Under the pieces are notes generated by a model. It was not told where the DNA came from. It ran no database searches and saw nothing but the letters and a program-made list of their open reading frames with translations. A stretch of 54,470 bases of DNA from a virus, in the IMG/VR virus record IMGVR_UViG_3300030107_005947, positions 1-54,470 of that record. The stretch is one strand, 5' to 3'. Below, piece by piece: positions 19,640 through 52,239 of the stretch. Position 1 is the first letter of the stretch, and each line of letters begins with the position of its first letter. Made by a program: the position numbers and the translations under genes.

Positions 19640-20350
19640 TTAATAAACATTCCAAAATAATACATCGTTACTTTTTTTCAACTGCATACATAATTCCAAT
19701 GCTTTTAAATCATAATTAGGCATACACTGAAAAGGTGCTTTGTATTTACTACTATAATCAAAACTTTTAGGATATTTAATTAAACGTAATCGTTCATGTT
19801 CATAATTAAAATCTTTACCTACTATAATACCAGTTACTTGTGCATTATTACTACCTGATAATATCCCTTTGACTAAAGTTCCACTACCTACTGCACAAAA
19901 AATTTCAGCAGGTTCTTTTCCTAATTCCTTAATTATAGTTTTCATGGTATTTGCTATGCTATTTATAGCAATTGGGTGATTAGCACCAAATTCTAAATAC
20001 TGATAATTACTATTTACATTTACAAAGTCTTTGGCACGTTTTTGTACTACGTTTAAATACCCAGGAGTAATTTCTACTACTTCACTACCTAACTCACTAG
20101 CTAATAAAGTGTTTGGGTGTTTTTCCTTGCGTTTGGCACAAAATATGATGCTTTTTTTACCAACGTTTTTTGCTACCTCACTTAAGGCTATTTGAAAACC
20201 TCCATATACTGGACTTGCGTATACATAACCATTTTTATTTTCATTTAAAAGTAAAGGTAAAAAACGGCTTTTAGTACCACCAATTAATAAATCATCTCGT
20301 AATACTGTTATACCTTCATAACTTTCCAAAGTAATTGTATTATCCGACAT
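19640..20350 (-). CDS. PLP-dependent enzyme, fold type II (tryptophan synthase beta family)
   Basis: The 236-residue product resembles ACC deaminase and D-cysteine desulfhydrase. VLRDDLLIGGTKSRFLP near the N-terminus places the PLP lysine at K27 (family pattern REDLL..GNK.R). FCAVGSGTLVKGILSG (~150-165) is the glycine-rich loop holding the PLP phosphate, and EFGANHP lies before it. It is shorter than the cellular enzymes (about 300-340 residues), so part of the fold is trimmed. The ATG at 20350 is preceded by GGAAAGGAG inside the end of the polymerase gene. An upstream ATG at 20401 would overlap polA by ~40 bases. The substrate is unknown. A role in amino-acid metabolism or in making a DNA-modifying precursor is speculative. 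Confidence 0.7.
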   Translation of the reverse strand: MSDNTITLESYEGITVLRDDLLIGGTKSRFLPLLLNENKNGYVYASPVYGGFQIALSEVAKNVGKKSIIFCAKRKEKHPNTLLASELGSEVVEITPGYLNVVQKRAKDFVNVNSNYQYLEFGANHPIAINSIANTMKTIIKELGKEPAEIFCAVGSGTLVKGILSGSNNAQVTGIIVGKDFNYEHERLRLIKYPKSFDYSSKYKAPFQCMPNYDLKALELCMQLKKSNDVLFWNVY

Positions 20351-20358
20351 TACAGCAA

Positions 20359-22296
20359 CTACTCCTTTCCCGTTAACTGTAAATCCTTCTTGGTAGCCCA
20401 TGACGGACTACATATTTCAACATCTACTTCTAATGGTATACCTAAACTATTGTTTTGTAAAATTTCTTTAATTACTAAAGGTAAAGTTTCCATTTCCGAA
20501 TTATGTATTTCACATATAATTTCATCATGTACTTGTAATAAAATACTGCTTTTAGTATCGGAAAGTCGCTTTTCTACTTCTATCATTCGTTCGGATAATA
20601 AATCTGCTGATGTTCCTTGAACTAAATAGTTGACGCCTTTATAAGCAAAGTCGGAATCTATTTGATATCGTCTGCCATAACGATTTTTAATCCAACCTCG
20701 TTTCACAACTATCCTTACTACATGATCAAAGAAATCTCTACTACCTTTTAAACCTTCAAAATATTTCTTTTTGTATAAAGACGCTTCTTTAACTGTTGTA
20801 CTTAATTGATGTGCCAGATTCTTTGCTCCCATACCATATATTGTTCCAAAAGTTATACCTTTTGCCATTTGACGATAATATTTAAATTGTTCATCTTCTT
20901 CAGTAACATTAAAGGCTAATTTTGCAGCTTCGCCATGAAAATCCACATCATTTTTGTTTAGAAGTGCATCTATAACATCATTCCTAAAATATGACATAAA
21001 AACTCTAACTTCCATTTGGCTATAGTCAAAAGAAACCAAAGTATGTTCTGGTCTTGCCACAAATAAACGCCTAATTGATATTTGATTACTATCATTTTCA
21101 TCAAAATACTCATCACCAACAAAAAACCACGAATCTATCAACTCATTAGAAACATTAACAGCTATGTTTTCTCTTTTTTGTGCTGACATTTTATTTCTAA
21201 TATCTTCCCTATCTTTATCTGTTATATTTTCACTAGATAAACGAAAGCTATTTCTTGGTATATTTTGCAAATTAGGTTCTCTTGATGACAATCTACCTGT
21301 TGCAGTACCCCAATTACAAAAATTTGTTCTCATTAGAGTTGTATCTATATAAGGTACTACATATGTTGAGTTTAATTTTGCAAAACCTCTATATTGTTTA
21401 ACTAATCCAGCCAATTTGTGATCTATAGTCATTAAAGCTGCTTCATTCCAAGAAGGATTTCCTTTTTCAGTTTTTACAGGAGATTCTATTCCAAGATATT
21501 CAAACACTTTTCCGAGTTGTTGTGTACTTAAAATATCAAATTCTTGCTTTGCAATATCATAAATTTCTGCTTGTAATTCAAGTAATTTATTATCAATCAA
21601 TTTTTTACACTTTATAGCATAGCCTTGATCAATAGTAATTCCACGCTTTTCTATTTTATGCAAAACTTCCGTTAATTCACATTGCAGTTCATAAATTTCA
21701 TTCTGCTGTGTGTTTTCTATTTGCTGAAGTGCATCTTCATAAACTCTAGCTGTTAACTCCACATCTTTTTTACAGTATTCTCCTAAAAATGTTGCTGGAG
21801 AAACAGAAAAATCCTTATGCCATTTATAGGACTTTAATGCTTTTTTTGTATCAATATCATATTGTACGGACTCTTTTCCGTACCATCTGGAACCAGTAGG
21901 AGTTAATCCAAAATCCCTAACTGAAGAAGATTCAACCAATCTTACCATAACAATGACATCAATTAGCTTTTTATCTTCTGAAATAAAACCATCATTTTCA
22001 AGAAAACGCAAATCAAATTTCAAATTGTAACCAATAACTGCTTTGCTTTGGTTTAATACTTCCATTAATTCTGGTAACTTATCGTAATCAAGGTTTTCTC
22101 CTTGATGATGCCTAAAGGGGAAATAGAAAGATTTTCCTTTAAAGGTAGCTTCTCCAACACCAATACCACATGATTGATTTATATCAGAATTTAAGCCGTT
22201 TGTTTCTACGTCAACAACAATTTTTTCAGTTCTTGCAATAATGTCCCTAACGTGCTGTAAATTTTCTCCGAAAGTTGCGTTTGTTACAACTGACAT
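20359..22296 (-). CDS. polA: Family A DNA polymerase with 3'-5' exonuclease
   Basis: The 645-residue replicative polymerase lacks the 5'-3' exonuclease domain. The proofreading domain shows VVDVETNGLN (D29, E31), GYNLKFDLRFL and a late YCKKDVELTAR. The polymerase domain shows motif A LVSFDYSQMEVRVF (~405), motif B RQMAKGITFGTIYGMG (~475) and motif C LLQVHDEIICEI (~595). The position equal to E. coli Phe762 is Phe, as reported for many virulent phages. The start overlaps the stop of the SSB-like gene. Confidence 0.92.
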   Translation of the reverse strand: MSVVTNATFGENLQHVRDIIARTEKIVVDVETNGLNSDINQSCGIGVGEATFKGKSFYFPFRHHQGENLDYDKLPELMEVLNQSKAVIGYNLKFDLRFLENDGFISEDKKLIDVIVMVRLVESSSVRDFGLTPTGSRWYGKESVQYDIDTKKALKSYKWHKDFSVSPATFLGEYCKKDVELTARVYEDALQQIENTQQNEIYELQCELTEVLHKIEKRGITIDQGYAIKCKKLIDNKLLELQAEIYDIAKQEFDILSTQQLGKVFEYLGIESPVKTEKGNPSWNEAALMTIDHKLAGLVKQYRGFAKLNSTYVVPYIDTTLMRTNFCNWGTATGRLSSREPNLQNIPRNSFRLSSENITDKDREDIRNKMSAQKRENIAVNVSNELIDSWFFVGDEYFDENDSNQISIRRLFVARPEHTLVSFDYSQMEVRVFMSYFRNDVIDALLNKNDVDFHGEAAKLAFNVTEEDEQFKYYRQMAKGITFGTIYGMGAKNLAHQLSTTVKEASLYKKKYFEGLKGSRDFFDHVVRIVVKRGWIKNRYGRRYQIDSDFAYKGVNYLVQGTSADLLSERMIEVEKRLSDTKSSILLQVHDEIICEIHNSEMETLPLVIKEILQNNSLGIPLEVDVEICSPSWATKKDLQLTGKE

Positions 22297-25630: not shown

Positions 25631-26806
25631 TCAATATTTTTTCAAAATATAACAAAATTCGAATTTATTGGAATTGCCTTCTTCATCAACCTGATTACTA
25701 GTTCGGGTAGATTCCGTTGGAGGTAATATACGATAGGTATCTACTAAGGTAAATTTTTCTTCTGCTATTTTTAACATATCAGAAGCTAGAGGTATTCCTG
25801 AAATTAATGCACCCATTACAAATGAAAATACTCCATCTTTTTTAAGTACATTATCGCTTTCTATAACTGTCTGTCTCCAGTATTTATCTAACCAAGTATC
25901 ATAATCATTATACAAAGCAGTAGATTGATTTTCACCAGCATAAACTTCTAAATCAAAATATGGTGGGCAGAAAAAAATCTTGTCATATTTTTCAGGCAAA
26001 ACACTGGACATTTTCTCAGAAGGAATACAAAAAGTTTCTAATTTATATGGGGCATCGAATAGCATTCGTGAATGAATATAATCAAATAATTCTTTTGTAA
26101 CATCTAATACCTTACACTGAACATCAACAATATGAATATCTGAATAATTATCACTCGTAACAGTGGCTAATACTGGACTTGACCAACTAGCTGAAGGAAT
26201 TAATAGCTTTTGTTTTTCCACATTAATATATTTATCAGTTTCTTGGAGTAGTGTTTTATATATTGCTGGACTAAATACTGAAACTTGTCCTGATTTTGTT
26301 TTTGCAGTAACAACAAAAGATATATAATCTTTATAATAAACAGTTTCAAAAACAGATGGTACAGTAACAAAATCTGGAACCTTTCCAGTTTCTAATGCTA
26401 ATTTATAAGCTGTTTTAAGATTTCCTCCATGTGCTGGTGCACAATCTAACATACTATCAAGATGAATATTTCTAATAACCCTTGTGTTGTTTGCAGAATG
26501 TTGTATAGCTTTATCAACTATTGGTAAAAATGGAACACTTCTAATATCTTTATAGGTATTTCCACTAATTTTATATTCTAATCTTTTTTTAAAGTATTCA
26601 ATTAACGGCTCATCATCGAGTAAAAAATTATAGCAGTATTCATAAAAAGTTTCTTTGGTTTTTAAGGTAGTAACACGAATATCATCAGGCTGTAATTTAT
26701 CCCACAATCTACTAAGCTGTTTAGTTTTGAGAAATTCATCTAATGATAAAGGAACAATATCTTCTCGAATAAGTTTTACAAAATCAGTTGAGGTAAATGT
26801 TTTCAT
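25631..26806 (-). CDS. DNA N4-cytosine/N6-adenine methyltransferase
   Basis: The 391-residue protein has an amino-methyltransferase motif IV variant CPPYFDLEVYAGENQS (~283-298). It is followed by W-x(n)-LKKDGVFSFVMG, the layout of phage DNA modification methylases that usually read SPPYFDLE. An upstream SAM-binding candidate is LDCAPAHGGNLKTA (~118-131). It may protect phage DNA from restriction or help build modified bases. The Cys in place of Ser, Asp or Asn in the PPY motif is a small oddity. No Shine-Dalgarno site precedes the ATG, and a sigma70-type promoter ends 8 bases upstream, so its mRNA may be nearly leaderless. Confidence 0.72.
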   Translation of the reverse strand: MKTFTSTDFVKLIREDIVPLSLDEFLKTKQLSRLWDKLQPDDIRVTTLKTKETFYEYCYNFLLDDEPLIEYFKKRLEYKISGNTYKDIRSVPFLPIVDKAIQHSANNTRVIRNIHLDSMLDCAPAHGGNLKTAYKLALETGKVPDFVTVPSVFETVYYKDYISFVVTAKTKSGQVSVFSPAIYKTLLQETDKYINVEKQKLLIPSASWSSPVLATVTSDNYSDIHIVDVQCKVLDVTKELFDYIHSRMLFDAPYKLETFCIPSEKMSSVLPEKYDKIFFCPPYFDLEVYAGENQSTALYNDYDTWLDKYWRQTVIESDNVLKKDGVFSFVMGALISGIPLASDMLKIAEEKFTLVDTYRILPPTESTRTSNQVDEEGNSNKFEFCYILKKY

Positions 26807-45960: not shown

Positions 45961-46146
45961 ATGATCCAGTCCATAGAAGAAGACCAAGTAATAGAACTTT
46001 TCAAAAAATATTACGCAAAAGTTCCAGATCTTATTTCGGAATTAGGAATGGACGTGTATGGTACAGACGCTAGAGCTGATTTGGCAAAAACATTTTTACT
46101 GGCACACTGCATAAACGAAAACACGAAAGCTGTTCGTGATTACTAA
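45961..46146 (+). CDS. Small protein heading the nadA operon
   Basis: The 61-residue product is acidic and helical (LFKKYYAKVPDLISELGMDVYG). The ATG has AGGGAGG 5 bases upstream. The stop overlaps the nadA start (TAATG). No recognised family. It is translationally coupled to nadA and may be an accessory. Confidence 0.55.
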   Translation: MIQSIEEDQVIELFKKYYAKVPDLISELGMDVYGTDARADLAKTFLLAHCINENTKAVRDY

Positions 46147-47330
46147 TGGTAAATAAATTACCAACAACGGAATTAGAACAATCTGCTTTTTGTCAAGAAG
46201 ATGCTTTAATTACCAAACCTCTAATTGAAGAATTAAAAATACCTGTTAACTGGCAAGAAGTACCTCAAGAATATCTTCACTTAGCTCCTGAAATTATTTC
46301 GGACAGAATTTTTACTGCAAAAAGAAAACTATCTACAGCAGTAACTATTTTAGGACACCATTACCAAAGAGAAGAAGTAATTCAGTTCGCTGATACTATT
46401 GGAGATTCTTATTTATTATCCGTACAAGCATCTAAACAACAAGCAAAATATATCATTTTTTGTGGTGTACAGTTTATGGCTGAAACTGCTGATATAGTTT
46501 GTCAAGATTGGCAAAAAGTTATACTACCAAATTTAGCAGCTGGGTGTTCTATGGCTGACATGGCTCCAACCGAGCAAGTTCAAGATGCTTGGTTAGAAAT
46601 TTTGACTAATGTTGGATCGTGGTTTGATGTTATACCTGTAGCATATATGAACTCCACTGCTGAGATTAAATCACTATGTGGTAGAAATAAAGGAATTATA
46701 TGTACCAGTTCAAATGTAACCAAGGCGTTTAAATGGGCTTTAGATAGAGGAAACAAAATATTTTTTCTACCCGATCAACACCTTGGAAAAAACACAGCTA
46801 AAAAATGGGATATTCCAGATAACGAAATAATTATTTGGGATCCATATAAACCTTTAGGTGGTAACACCTTAGAGGATTTAACAAGAGCAACAGTAATATT
46901 ATGGAAAGCCCATTGTTCGGTACATACCAGATTCACAACAAAACAAATAGAGTCAGCCAGACAAAAATTCCCTAAGGTTAAAGTTATTGTTCACCCAGAA
47001 TGTACTTCTGAAGTTGTCGATATGGCTGATATGAATGGTAGTACAGAAATGATTATAAATAGAGTTAACAATAGTAAATCAGGTAGTATTTTTGCAATTG
47101 GTACAGAAATAAATCTTGTTAATAGGTTAGCTAAGAATAATCCAGATAAAACAATATTTTGCTTGGACTCTATTGTGTGTCCTTGTTCTACGATGTATAG
47201 GATACACCCTGCTTATTTATTGTGGGTATTAGAATCGATTATTTATAAAGATCCTGTTAATGTTATTGAAGTTTCAGAAGAAACTAAATTTTACGCAAAA
47301 CGGGCAATTAATAGAATGATGGTGTTATAA
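46146..47330 (+). CDS. nadA: Quinolinate synthase
   Basis: This enzyme condenses iminoaspartate and dihydroxyacetone phosphate to quinolinate, the precursor of NAD. The 394-residue protein has the expected 4Fe-4S cysteines: C106 (FCGVQFMAE), C257 (WKAHCSVH) and C345/C347 (SIVCPCSTMYRIHP). Other motifs are HHYQREEVIQ (70-80), AGCSMADMAP (~132), YMNSTAE (~167), CTSSNV (~186), FLPDQHLG and HPECTSEVVD (~283). Family residues are intact, so the enzyme should be active. No nadB or nadC lies in this window, so it would feed a host pathway. Rare in phages. Confidence 0.93.
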   Translation: MVNKLPTTELEQSAFCQEDALITKPLIEELKIPVNWQEVPQEYLHLAPEIISDRIFTAKRKLSTAVTILGHHYQREEVIQFADTIGDSYLLSVQASKQQAKYIIFCGVQFMAETADIVCQDWQKVILPNLAAGCSMADMAPTEQVQDAWLEILTNVGSWFDVIPVAYMNSTAEIKSLCGRNKGIICTSSNVTKAFKWALDRGNKIFFLPDQHLGKNTAKKWDIPDNEIIIWDPYKPLGGNTLEDLTRATVILWKAHCSVHTRFTTKQIESARQKFPKVKVIVHPECTSEVVDMADMNGSTEMIINRVNNSKSGSIFAIGTEINLVNRLAKNNPDKTIFCLDSIVCPCSTMYRIHPAYLLWVLESIIYKDPVNVIEVSEETKFYAKRAINRMMVL

Positions 47331-48988: not shown

Positions 48989-49843
48989 ATGATAGAACGA
49001 ATATATATACCGACAGTTAGACGTACAGACAAACAAATTACCTATGATAATCTTCCTGATGAATTAAAAAAGAAAGTTGTTATGGTAATTGAGCCAAACG
49101 AACGCCATCTTTATAATTATGATTGTGAGTATCTGGAAATACCTGAAAAATTAGTAGGCACATGGACACAACTGGCTGAAACCAGATTGTTTATTCATAA
49201 ACACGCAGGTAACATTAAATACTGCGTTTCTGATGACGATATAGTTATAGAAAGAAGAAATGCAAAATATTGGACTGGAAAATCCAACATGGAAAAAAGT
49301 AGGCAACGTGCCAATAATAGCGATATACTAGAAATGTTTTCAAAAATTGATACTTGGTTAGATGAACCTAATATCGGAATTATCGGACTTAGTGATGCAG
49401 GTATACCTCCACAAAGTGTTGAATATGTAGATACTGTTGGTGTATATTGTATGGTTTTTATTGATGGTACAATGTTATCAAAAATTATAGATGATATAGA
49501 TATAACATCAATTAGAATTGCTGAAGATGTTTTGTTTTTGTTTGAATGTCTATCAAGAGGCATTAATACCCGCAGAGTAACTGAGTGGATATACGATAAC
49601 AAAAGTCTTTATCAAAAAGATTTACAAAACAGTAGGGAAGTGTGGACTGGTATGTTTAAAGATGGAGAAATGCCACCAAATCATTATCAACATAATTTAC
49701 ATATTGAAGTTATGCAATATATTCAAAGTAAATATCCAGAGTGTATTGATATTTACGAAAAAAACGGAAAGTTTAAATTTCGAAAAAAATGGAAAAAGGC
49801 ATATAAAAGTAGGTTAGTTGAATCTCAAAAGCAATTATTATAA
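48989..49843 (+). CDS. GT-A-like glycosyltransferase family protein
   Basis: The 284-residue product begins RIYIPTVRRTDKQITYDNLP and has a DxD-like VSDDDIVIERR (~74-84). This resembles the MDDNI of the TAGT proteins encoded just downstream. The later part (AEDVLFLFECLSRGINTRRVTEWIYDN) fits the acceptor half of a GT-A fold. It is likely a nucleotide-sugar transferase related to, but distant from, the two TAGT copies. The target may be a modified base in phage DNA, or a protein. The ATG lies under the switch-like leader. Confidence 0.6.
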   Translation: MIERIYIPTVRRTDKQITYDNLPDELKKKVVMVIEPNERHLYNYDCEYLEIPEKLVGTWTQLAETRLFIHKHAGNIKYCVSDDDIVIERRNAKYWTGKSNMEKSRQRANNSDILEMFSKIDTWLDEPNIGIIGLSDAGIPPQSVEYVDTVGVYCMVFIDGTMLSKIIDDIDITSIRIAEDVLFLFECLSRGINTRRVTEWIYDNKSLYQKDLQNSREVWTGMFKDGEMPPNHYQHNLHIEVMQYIQSKYPECIDIYEKNGKFKFRKKWKKAYKSRLVESQKQLL

Positions 49844-49855
49844 GGAAAATTATTT

Positions 49856-50128
49856 ATGAATCAAGAAGATAATCAAGAACAATTGGAATTATTTGAAATG
49901 AAGGCTGATCCTAAGGAATGGGAAGTTGAGTGGCAAGGTATGCCAGAATTTATTCAGGAAAAACGTGATCCTTTTCACATGATCCAAATTCGTTTTGCAA
50001 GTGAAAAAGATTATAGGGAATTTGCTGAACTTATTGAACAAAACCTTACTAAAAAAACTCTAAGCATATGGTATCCAAAACTACAGATAGGTGCCAATGC
50101 TCATTTAAGGTATGCTGATGAATCCTAA
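49856..50128 (+). CDS. TAGT partner protein, copy 1
   Basis: The 90-residue product has WEVEWQGMPEFIQEKRDPFHMIQIRFASEKDYREFAELI (~22-62) and SIWYPK (~73). Its second half closely matches the product at 51096 (WWEEEWQDMPEF ... HFDEFAKLI ... SIWYPK). The fold is probably a small alpha-beta domain. The gene overlaps the TAGT start by 11 bases (ATGAATCCTAA), a feature shared with copy 2. Such domains travel with TAGT-like genes, and a helper or substrate-binding role is inferred. Confidence 0.65.
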   Translation: MNQEDNQEQLELFEMKADPKEWEVEWQGMPEFIQEKRDPFHMIQIRFASEKDYREFAELIEQNLTKKTLSIWYPKLQIGANAHLRYADES

Positions 50129-51077
50129 ATATCCCATATATATTATTTCCAAAGGACGTTGGGATTTGCCAAAAGGTACTCACGCACATTTAACCAGAAT
50201 GAATGTTGAATTTTTTATTGTCGTTGAAGAACAAGAATATGAACAATACGCAAAACACACCGACAAAGAAAAATTATTAATTTTGCCTAAAAAGTATTTA
50301 GAAGATTATGACACGTTTTGGGAAAAAGATATTAATCAATCTACTGGTCCAGGGGCTGCAAGAAATTTTTGTTGGGATCATGCGATTAGTTTAAATGCTT
50401 CCAGACATTGGGTCATGGACGATAATATTTATGGCTTTTTTAGATTTAATAGAAATAGTATTTACTTAGTTGAAACTGGTGCTATGTTTCGAGCAATGGA
50501 AGATTTTGTAGATCGATACGAAAACGTGGCTATTGCTGGACCAAACTACCAAAAATTTATTGTTACAAATGAAAAATATTTACCTTTTAGAAAAAACATT
50601 AGGATTTATTCGTGTTTATTAATTAAGAATGATTTACCATTTAGATGGCGAGGTAGATATAATGAGGATACTGATTTATGTCTTAATGCTTTAAAATTAA
50701 ATTATTGTACTATTCAGTTCAACGCCTTTTTGCAAGAAAAAATCACAACCCAAAGAATATCTGGTGGTAATACTGCTGAATTTTATGCTCAAGAAGGAAC
50801 ATATAATAAATCAAAAATGCTTGTCGATATGCACCCTGATGTTACTTCCCTTGTCTGGAGATTTGATAGATGGCACCACGAAGTTTATTATGAAGTTTTT
50901 AAAAAAATATCACTTATTAGAAAAAAAGATATTGAAGTTTTGGATAGAATAAATAATTACGGAATGACCTTAGTTGATAGTGAAACAAATGAGGTTATAG
51001 GACCTAGTTTAGAAAAATCACCACACAAACAAAATATAATTGAATTTAAAGAAAGTTTTCAAAAGTCGTTATTTTAA
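50118..51077 (+). CDS. TET-associated-type glycosyltransferase (TAGT), copy 1
   Basis: The 319-residue protein has the TAGT landmarks. They are YPIYIISKGRWD (~4-15), VVEEQEYEQYA (~37), GPGAARNFCWDHAI (~80-93), HWVMDDNIYGFFRFNRN (~101-118) with the catalytic DD, EDFVDRYENV (~133), IRIYSCLLI (~165) and RGRYNEDTDLCL (~183). QFNAFLQEKITTQ and SGGN follow. TAGT proteins of phages are thought to add sugars to hydroxymethylated cytosine in DNA. No TET enzyme lies in this window. I start at ATG 50118, which aligns with copy 2 (MNPKYPIYI), and not at 50112. Confidence 0.75.
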   Translation: MNPKYPIYIISKGRWDLPKGTHAHLTRMNVEFFIVVEEQEYEQYAKHTDKEKLLILPKKYLEDYDTFWEKDINQSTGPGAARNFCWDHAISLNASRHWVMDDNIYGFFRFNRNSIYLVETGAMFRAMEDFVDRYENVAIAGPNYQKFIVTNEKYLPFRKNIRIYSCLLIKNDLPFRWRGRYNEDTDLCLNALKLNYCTIQFNAFLQEKITTQRISGGNTAEFYAQEGTYNKSKMLVDMHPDVTSLVWRFDRWHHEVYYEVFKKISLIRKKDIEVLDRINNYGMTLVDSETNEVIGPSLEKSPHKQNIIEFKESFQKSLF

Positions 51078-51095
51078 AAGTATAGGAGTATTGCT

Positions 51096-51338
51096 ATGAG
51101 TGAAGATGGAATTTCTCAGCTTACTTGGTGGGAAGAAGAATGGCAAGATATGCCTGAGTTTATAAGCGAGGATATCCAACCTTATCAAAAAATTGTTATA
51201 CGTTTTGAAACCAAAGAACATTTTGATGAATTTGCAAAATTGATTGGACAAAATCTAACTTCAAGAACAAAAAGTATTTGGTATCCTAAATTAATTCACA
51301 AAGATTGGCAAAAGTTGAGGTATAGAGATGAATCCTAA
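51096..51338 (+). CDS. TAGT partner protein, copy 2
   Basis: This 80-residue paralogue of the product at 49856 is about half identical over ~60 residues by eye (EEWQDMPEFI, FETKEHFDEFAKLIGQNLTSRTKSIWYPK). The ATG has TAGGAG upstream. It overlaps the second TAGT gene by 11 bases in the same way as copy 1. Confidence 0.65.
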   Translation: MSEDGISQLTWWEEEWQDMPEFISEDIQPYQKIVIRFETKEHFDEFAKLIGQNLTSRTKSIWYPKLIHKDWQKLRYRDES

Positions 51339-52239
51339 ATACCCTATTTATATTGTATCCAAAGGTCGTTGGGAAAGTCGAATAACTAGTAAATCCCTAG
51401 AACTTATAAATGTGCCTTATTATATTGCTGTAGAACCACAAGAATACGAGCAGTACGCAAGTGTTATTGACCCTAAAAAAATACTGGTATTGCCTTTTAG
51501 CAACCACGGATTAGGACCAACACTTGCCCGTAATTGGTGTTGGGAACATTCTATTTCTTTAGGTGCAAAACGTCACTGGGTAATGGACGATAATATTTCG
51601 CATTTTTACAGGTTAAATAAAAATGTTCGAGTACAAGTAAGTTCTGGCACAATATTTCGTGCTGCTGAAGACTTTGTTGATAGATATGAAAATGTTCCAT
51701 TAGCTGGATTACAATATCGTTTTTTTGCTGTACCAGATGGTAAATTACCTGCATACGTCAAAAACACCAGAATATATTCATGTCTACTTATAGAAAACTC
51801 TACTCCTTATAGATGGCGTGGTAAATATAATGAAGATACGGATATATCTTTGAGGATATTAAAAGACGGATTATGTACAATTCAATTTAACGCTTTCCTC
51901 CAAGGCAAAGTGGCAACACAAACTGTTTCTGGTGGTAATTCCATGGAATTTTACGATCACGAAGGTACCTTAAATAAATCCCAGTATTTAGTAGATTTGC
52001 ACCCAGACGTTTCTAGTCTAGTTATGAGATATAATAGATGGCATCATTACGTTGATTATTCTCCGTTTAAAAAAAATAAATTAATTAAAAGAAAAGATTT
52101 AATAATTCCCGAAGGCGTTGACAATTACGGAATGATTTTAGTAGATGAAGAAGCAGTTCCAGAAATTAAAAAACCTGTTGATACTAATAAGTTTTTTCCT
52201 GATTCTGATATTGATTTTCAATACTCTCTTTTTTCTTGA
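51328..52239 (+). CDS. TET-associated-type glycosyltransferase (TAGT), copy 2
   Basis: The 303-residue protein carries the same landmarks as copy 1: YPIYIVSKGRWESRITS (~4-20), VEPQEYEQYASVIDPKKILVLPFS, GLGPTLARNWCWEHSI, HWVMDDNISHFYRLNKN (DD), EDFVDRYENVPLAG, TRIYSCLLIENS and RGKYNEDTDISLR. It is closer to the typical TAGT than copy 1 (PFSN-x-G-x-G-x-x-x-ARNW). Tandem duplication of the whole two-gene unit is clear. The last residues are polar. It probably glycosylates modified DNA bases. Confidence 0.8.
   Translation: MNPKYPIYIVSKGRWESRITSKSLELINVPYYIAVEPQEYEQYASVIDPKKILVLPFSNHGLGPTLARNWCWEHSISLGAKRHWVMDDNISHFYRLNKNVRVQVSSGTIFRAAEDFVDRYENVPLAGLQYRFFAVPDGKLPAYVKNTRIYSCLLIENSTPYRWRGKYNEDTDISLRILKDGLCTIQFNAFLQGKVATQTVSGGNSMEFYDHEGTLNKSQYLVDLHPDVSSLVMRYNRWHHYVDYSPFKKNKLIKRKDLIIPEGVDNYGMILVDEEAVPEIKKPVDTNKFFPDSDIDFQYSLFS

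Follow-up and report, generated by a model that had tools for sequence, protein, structure and literature searches.

The TAGT glycosyltransferases (Pfam PF20691; PHROG 842) take their name from an association with TET/JBP dioxygenases. The TAGT of phages T2 and T6 adds a second glucose onto alpha-glucosyl-hydroxymethylcytosine in DNA, acting after the alpha-glucosyltransferase (alpha-GT) that works on hydroxymethylcytosine (PMC13216743, PMC13390438). In many phages a TAGT occurs although the first-sugar enzymes of T-even phages are missing; the first report places 288 of 753 phages with T-even-type glycosyltransferase homologues in a 'solitary TAGT' class, and describes the role of solitary TAGTs as an open question (PMC13216743). 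A further point of comparison is offered by RB69-like phages, in which paired DNA arabinosyltransferases, associated with 5-ara-dC and 5-ara-ara-dC, are proposed to modify the phage DNA one after the other (PMC13390438).

The window analysed here is a virus record of 54,470 bases in which end repeats were not found, and which is possibly an incomplete contig. Over positions 49856-52239 of its plus strand lie two consecutive units, each a small partner gene adjoining a TAGT gene, in the head-to-tail order partner 1, TAGT 1, partner 2, TAGT 2 (Table 1). A sequence-only reading of this stretch had described these four ORFs, and all of their coordinates were confirmed. Judging from the homologues, which begin MNPxYP, TAGT 1 would start at 50118 and not at the upstream ATG at 50112. 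The two partners share 55% identity over the aligned region and the two TAGTs 59%, and the units are therefore homologous beyond doubt.

Table 1 Features of the partner-TAGT locus and of the gene immediately upstream
Feature	Position	Strand	Length	Description
Third, divergent GT-A-like ORF	48989..49843	+	284 aa	SDDD motif; weak TAGT match (1.1e-5); PHROG 842 (1.3e-11)
Partner 1	49856..50128	+	90 aa	ORF of the partner family; W-x3-W-x-GMPEF ... SIWYP ... RYxDES
TAGT 1	50118..51077	+	319 aa	From ATG 50118; 'long-insert' clade in the tree; catalytic-type MDDN motif; PF20691 (E 7.4e-41); PHROG 842 (2.1e-50)
Overlap 1, ATGAATCCTAA	50118..50128	+	11 bases	TAGT 1 start codon within the end of partner 1; AGG (conserved Arg codon) 7 bases 5' of the ATG
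Partner 2	51096..51338	+	80 aa	ORF; 55% identity to partner 1; phrog_22103, of unknown function (4.5e-4)
TAGT 2	51328..52239	+	303 aa	'Short' clade; PF20691 (E 1.1e-44); GT-A fold in the predicted model
Overlap 2, ATGAATCCTAA	51328..51338	+	11 bases	AGG again 7 bases 5' of the ATG

By profile, both larger proteins are TAGT glycosyltransferases, scoring 140.8 and 153.3 bits against PF20691 (curated cut-off 27.5) and matching PHROG 842, annotated 'beta-glucosyl-HMC-alpha-glucosyltransferase'. This bears out the TAGT-type identity proposed from the letters alone, and the MDDNI motif named in that proposal is present in both copies. A structure search, suggested there as a check, returned GT-A enzymes: an AlphaFold2 model of TAGT 2 built from 46 relatives (mean pLDDT 87.8, pTM 0.85) matched COLGALT1 (2.5e-6), TarP and SpsA, among others, in a Foldseek search of the PDB. 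Residues D87-D88-N89 are invariant across the 46 relatives, as are all named residues of the HW-x2-DDN motif, and TAGT 2 is predicted to have a GT-A fold with an acidic metal-binding motif. In profile score, fold and DDN motif the window enzymes thus resemble the described family; they differ in that the family entries cover the catalytic domain only, whereas this clade comes with a partner absent from Pfam and NCBIfam and without an assigned function in PHROGs.

Profile searches of Pfam and NCBIfam found no family for the partner, and in PHROGs partner 2 has the weak match given in Table 1. A model of the partner (pLDDT 82, pTM 0.52) found no solved structural relative in the PDB, and a BFVD search with the same model matched only homologous, uncharacterised viral proteins. 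Weak sequence matches to eIF3J and BTG2 were taken as chance.

Relatives were gathered by three routes, namely TAGT protein similarity, the DNA pattern of the junction, and partner similarity; TAGT 2 served as the query against bacterial genomes, and the sampling is biased toward relatives of the query. Among 102 non-redundant TAGTs from loci picked by TAGT alone, the partner lies directly upstream in 75, is fused in 12, and is upstream with one or more genes between in 9. Setting aside four cases at contig edges, it is therefore upstream or fused in 96 of the 98 that could be tested; one of the other two has a partner downstream only, and the sole TAGT without any comes second in a tandem pair. 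In the reverse direction, partner similarity alone yielded 82 partner ORFs, and each is followed on its own strand, within 1.5 kb, by a TAGT, which is adjacent in 71 cases. Beyond this branch, no partner was seen for two divergent Bacteroidota-side TAGTs (L335, L336), and none was found for the T6 TAGT, which is more distant than the sampled relatives. By sequence search, the partner is thus a protein not previously described in Pfam or NCBIfam and, within one large branch of the phage TAGTs, a companion that is almost never missing. The near-universal linkage and the natural fusions point to a dedicated subunit of the enzyme, which supports the role suggested for it in the sequence-only reading. 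Given so close a companion, assays that include only the catalytic chain could be unsuccessful.

Three architectures are found. In the first, as in the window, partner and TAGT are separate, overlapping genes. In the second, the partner forms the N-terminus of the TAGT, as in Aeromonas phage Aeh1, Tenacibaculum phage PTm1, Pectobacterium phage POP12, Vibrio phages 1.124.O and 1.076.O, and both tandem enzymes of Vibrio phage Kuja. In the third, it forms the C-terminus of a ParB-like protein encoded just upstream of the TAGT, with prophages in Pantoea, Erwinia and Chryseobacterium among the carriers. Proteins found fused in both directions typically cooperate, and the fusions of the partner to TAGT and to ParB-like proteins therefore suggest joint action, the ParB-like domains pointing to DNA. 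Among the long N-terminal extensions, of which a sample was compared with ParB profiles, ParB-like proteins matched PF02195 (7.8e-20 and 1.2e-12) and phrog_620 (2e-56), and the ParB part of one also matched the DNA-methyltransferase family phrog_498. Fusion of ParB domains to DNA methyltransferases is frequent (PMC12783734). The ParB-like fusions thereby suggest, in concrete terms, a way in which the enzyme may be guided to DNA.

The fusions of Aeh1 (Aeh1p093), PTm1 and Kuja (gp033 and gp032, in tandem) combine the two domains in the order seen in the window, but within a single chain and not as a pair of overlapping genes. Such natural fusions in cultured phages (Aeh1, PTm1, Kuja and Vibrio 1.124.O) make the question of what solitary TAGTs do directly testable. 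A second small partner-domain ORF was observed directly 3' of the fused gene in Aeh1 (Aeh1p092; L242:4878-5091) and in POP12 (POP12_147; L245:4830-5028).

The overlap between partner and TAGT is the same 11 bases in both copies, as had been noticed from the sequence; within ATGAATCCTAA, the ATG is the TAGT start and the TAA the partner stop. It had been suggested that other phages be searched for it, and the 11-base overlap is not peculiar to this phage: of the 145 partner/TAGT junctions whose ATG could be mapped, 103 overlap by exactly 11 bases, as do 38 of 65 junctions from loci selected by TAGT alone. The remaining overlaps are mostly of 8, 4, 14 or 1 bases. The partner tail 'DES' accompanies the 11-base form, while the preceding R-[YW] pair is kept with other overlaps too. 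The conserved arginine is coded AGG in 39 of 68 11-base junctions, against 104 of 664 other arginines (Fisher p 3e-13), and the AGG usually stands 7 bases 5' of the ATG. The simplest reading would be translational coupling with an embedded ribosome-binding site.

Put together, the homology of the units, the GT-A fold, the linkage and fusions, the difference in clade and the conserved junction, all drawn from sequence, make it fairly probable in our view that the window encodes a phage glycosyltransferase of two subunits in two paralogous versions. In each, a GT-A catalytic chain of the TAGT family would be paired with a small partner dedicated to it, and a coupled start would link the translation of the two. 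The TAGT start codon lies 11 bases short of the partner gene's end, and the conserved partner arginine codon, usually AGG, would double as the TAGT Shine-Dalgarno sequence. The partner would most likely be a non-catalytic subunit that delivers the acceptor, probably phage DNA, to the glycosyltransferase; that it binds DNA itself is a guess, because its model has no solved structural relative. The two modules, most likely brought together by acquisition or by an old duplication, would transfer different sugars or act successively, together with the third glycosyltransferase upstream. Against this explanation, profile searches of the window found no enzyme that makes a hydroxyl on a base, and the T6 TAGT is active without a partner, which is therefore not required for the fold as such.

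DNA glycosylation would be the likeliest role, because the T6 enzyme sets a precedent and the partner is fused to ParB-like domains. A live but somewhat unlikely alternative is that the module acts on a target other than DNA, such as capsid or tail proteins of the phage or a glycan on the host surface. The best fold neighbours of TAGT 2, COLGALT1 and TarP, are protein and cell-wall glycosyltransferases, and the lack of a detected base-hydroxylating enzyme fits such a target as well. So does a Pantoea stewartii prophage (L302, 3196-6867), where ParB-partner and TAGT genes are clustered with sialyltransferase-like, GT9-like and methyltransferase genes, the cluster being flanked by lysis and terminase genes, a setting that also counts against our own explanation. 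The ParB-like fusions, one with its match to a DNA-methyltransferase family, speak for DNA instead, as does the T2/T6 TAGT, whose known activity is on DNA (PMC13216743).

If the acceptor is DNA, the module might follow the classical T-even route and glucosylate 5-hydroxymethylcytosine made through a dCMP hydroxymethylase, in the manner of the T2/T6 second-sugar enzyme. The T6 enzyme does belong to the same Pfam family, and thymidylate-synthase-family genes are present in the large fusion carriers Aeh1, PTm1, Kuja and POP12. However, that family (PF00303) was not found in the window by a search that found the T6 hydroxymethylase, nor in 26 of 27 sibling contigs (40-334 kb), nor in Vibrio phages 1.124.O and 1.076.O (47.6 and 47.9 kb); the window being possibly incomplete, the missing gene could sit outside it. 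The T-even alpha-GT (PF11440) was found neither in the window nor in any partner carrier tested (T6 positive control, 5.6e-260). Searches of 37 records for beta-GT (PF09198) and for TET/JBP dioxygenase (PF12851), neither of which gave a positive control, found none. The T6 TAGT, moreover, is a remote member (4.8e-11 to the Pfam model) as well as partnerless. We thus regard the T-even route as rather unlikely, and the case for hydroxymethylcytosine as the acceptor base as weak; the link to glycosylated hydroxymethylcytosine drawn in the sequence-only reading is weakened accordingly, with no hydroxymethylase of this family or alpha-GT in the window and almost none in its siblings.

Partner carriers, unlike T2 and T6, have no alpha-GT and mostly no hydroxymethylase family. 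They therefore fall among the 'solitary TAGT' phages, which like the window have a TAGT without alpha-GT; the accessible text on that class does not report the partner (PMC13216743). The window recalls the RB69-like pairs in placing two glycosyltransferases side by side that may act in sequence, but no TAGT (PF20691) was found in RB69, and the hydroxylated base of RB69-like phages is made by a thymidylate-synthase-family enzyme, which was not found in the window. A broader reading, possible but tentative, is that TAGT and partner, the latter also found on DNA-binding domains of the ParB-like kind, form a widespread two-subunit phage DNA glycosyltransferase. It would sugar DNA in the absence of a thymidylate-synthase-type hydroxymethylase and of the T-even alpha-GT, attaching the sugar through a different chemical handle or through none at all, and divergent modules that occur as a pair would assemble a compound sugar modification. 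A methyltransferase-like protein in the window (25631-26806, minus strand; CPPY motif, weak match to phrog_498) is a candidate maker of such a base handle; no relatives of it were found in phage records.

As to how the two modules came together, the sequence-only reading had proposed a tandem duplication. Two homologous units are indeed present, but a recent local duplication, with the copies later diverging in sequence and sugar, appears unlikely, and we give it a small probability. The head-to-tail order and the identical overlap would suit it, and genuine sister tandem copies do occur, in Kuja (75% identity, support 99; two tandem partner-TAGT fusion genes at 3581-6269 of L243) and in L073 (75%, support 98). 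Yet the identical overlap is not a mark of recent copying, because most relatives have it. Outside relatives reach 67-69% identity to TAGT 2 and 62% to TAGT 1, against 59% between the window copies, and for each partner the other window copy ranks only 37th and 33rd of 246. In trees, TAGT 1 and TAGT 2 fall in separate supported clades (bootstrap/SH-aLRT 97/97 and 100/99), and the window copies, unlike those of Kuja, are probably not sisters. An AU test on the full alignment rejected the sister pair (p 0.00015); with the insert region removed it no longer did so (p 0.104), a loss of significance that counts against our explanation too. The insert noted near residues 58-75 of copy 1 is real and begins after residue ~57, but it is shared by a whole large clade and would not be a change that followed duplication here. 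The two modules come from different clades, and were therefore most likely joined by acquisition or by an old duplication, the latter being possible on the sequence evidence. The arrangement of the window, in which a long-form TAGT preceded by a partner is followed by a second partner and a short-form TAGT of a different clade, recurs in IMGVR_UViG_3300027863_000020 (L192), and two further loci (L303 and L322) have two TAGTs each.

That the partner is merely a co-transcribed small protein with its own role is very improbable: short overlaps are common among phage genes whose products do not physically interact, and at some loci another gene separates partner from TAGT, but the linkage is near-universal in both directions and twelve non-redundant fusions in distant phages are strong evidence of joint action.

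The two-subunit enzyme that we favour may not stand alone in the window. The third GT-A-like ORF, overlooked in the earlier reading, ends 12 bases before partner 1 and probably belongs to the cassette. Its homologues adjoin partner and TAGT genes in other contigs and lie between the two in L020, L027 and L076; no relatives were found in cultured phage records. Comparison with TAGT gave no firm tie (probability 5.9%), and none to the T6 TAGT was obtained either.

Elsewhere in the window, a PLP-dependent, threonine-dehydratase-like enzyme (19640-20401, minus strand; phrog_7093) is encoded in a gene overlapping that of DNA polymerase A. A quinolinate synthase NadA (46146-47330, plus strand; Pfam 8e-97) is also present, an NAD-synthesis gene that is unusual for a phage contig.
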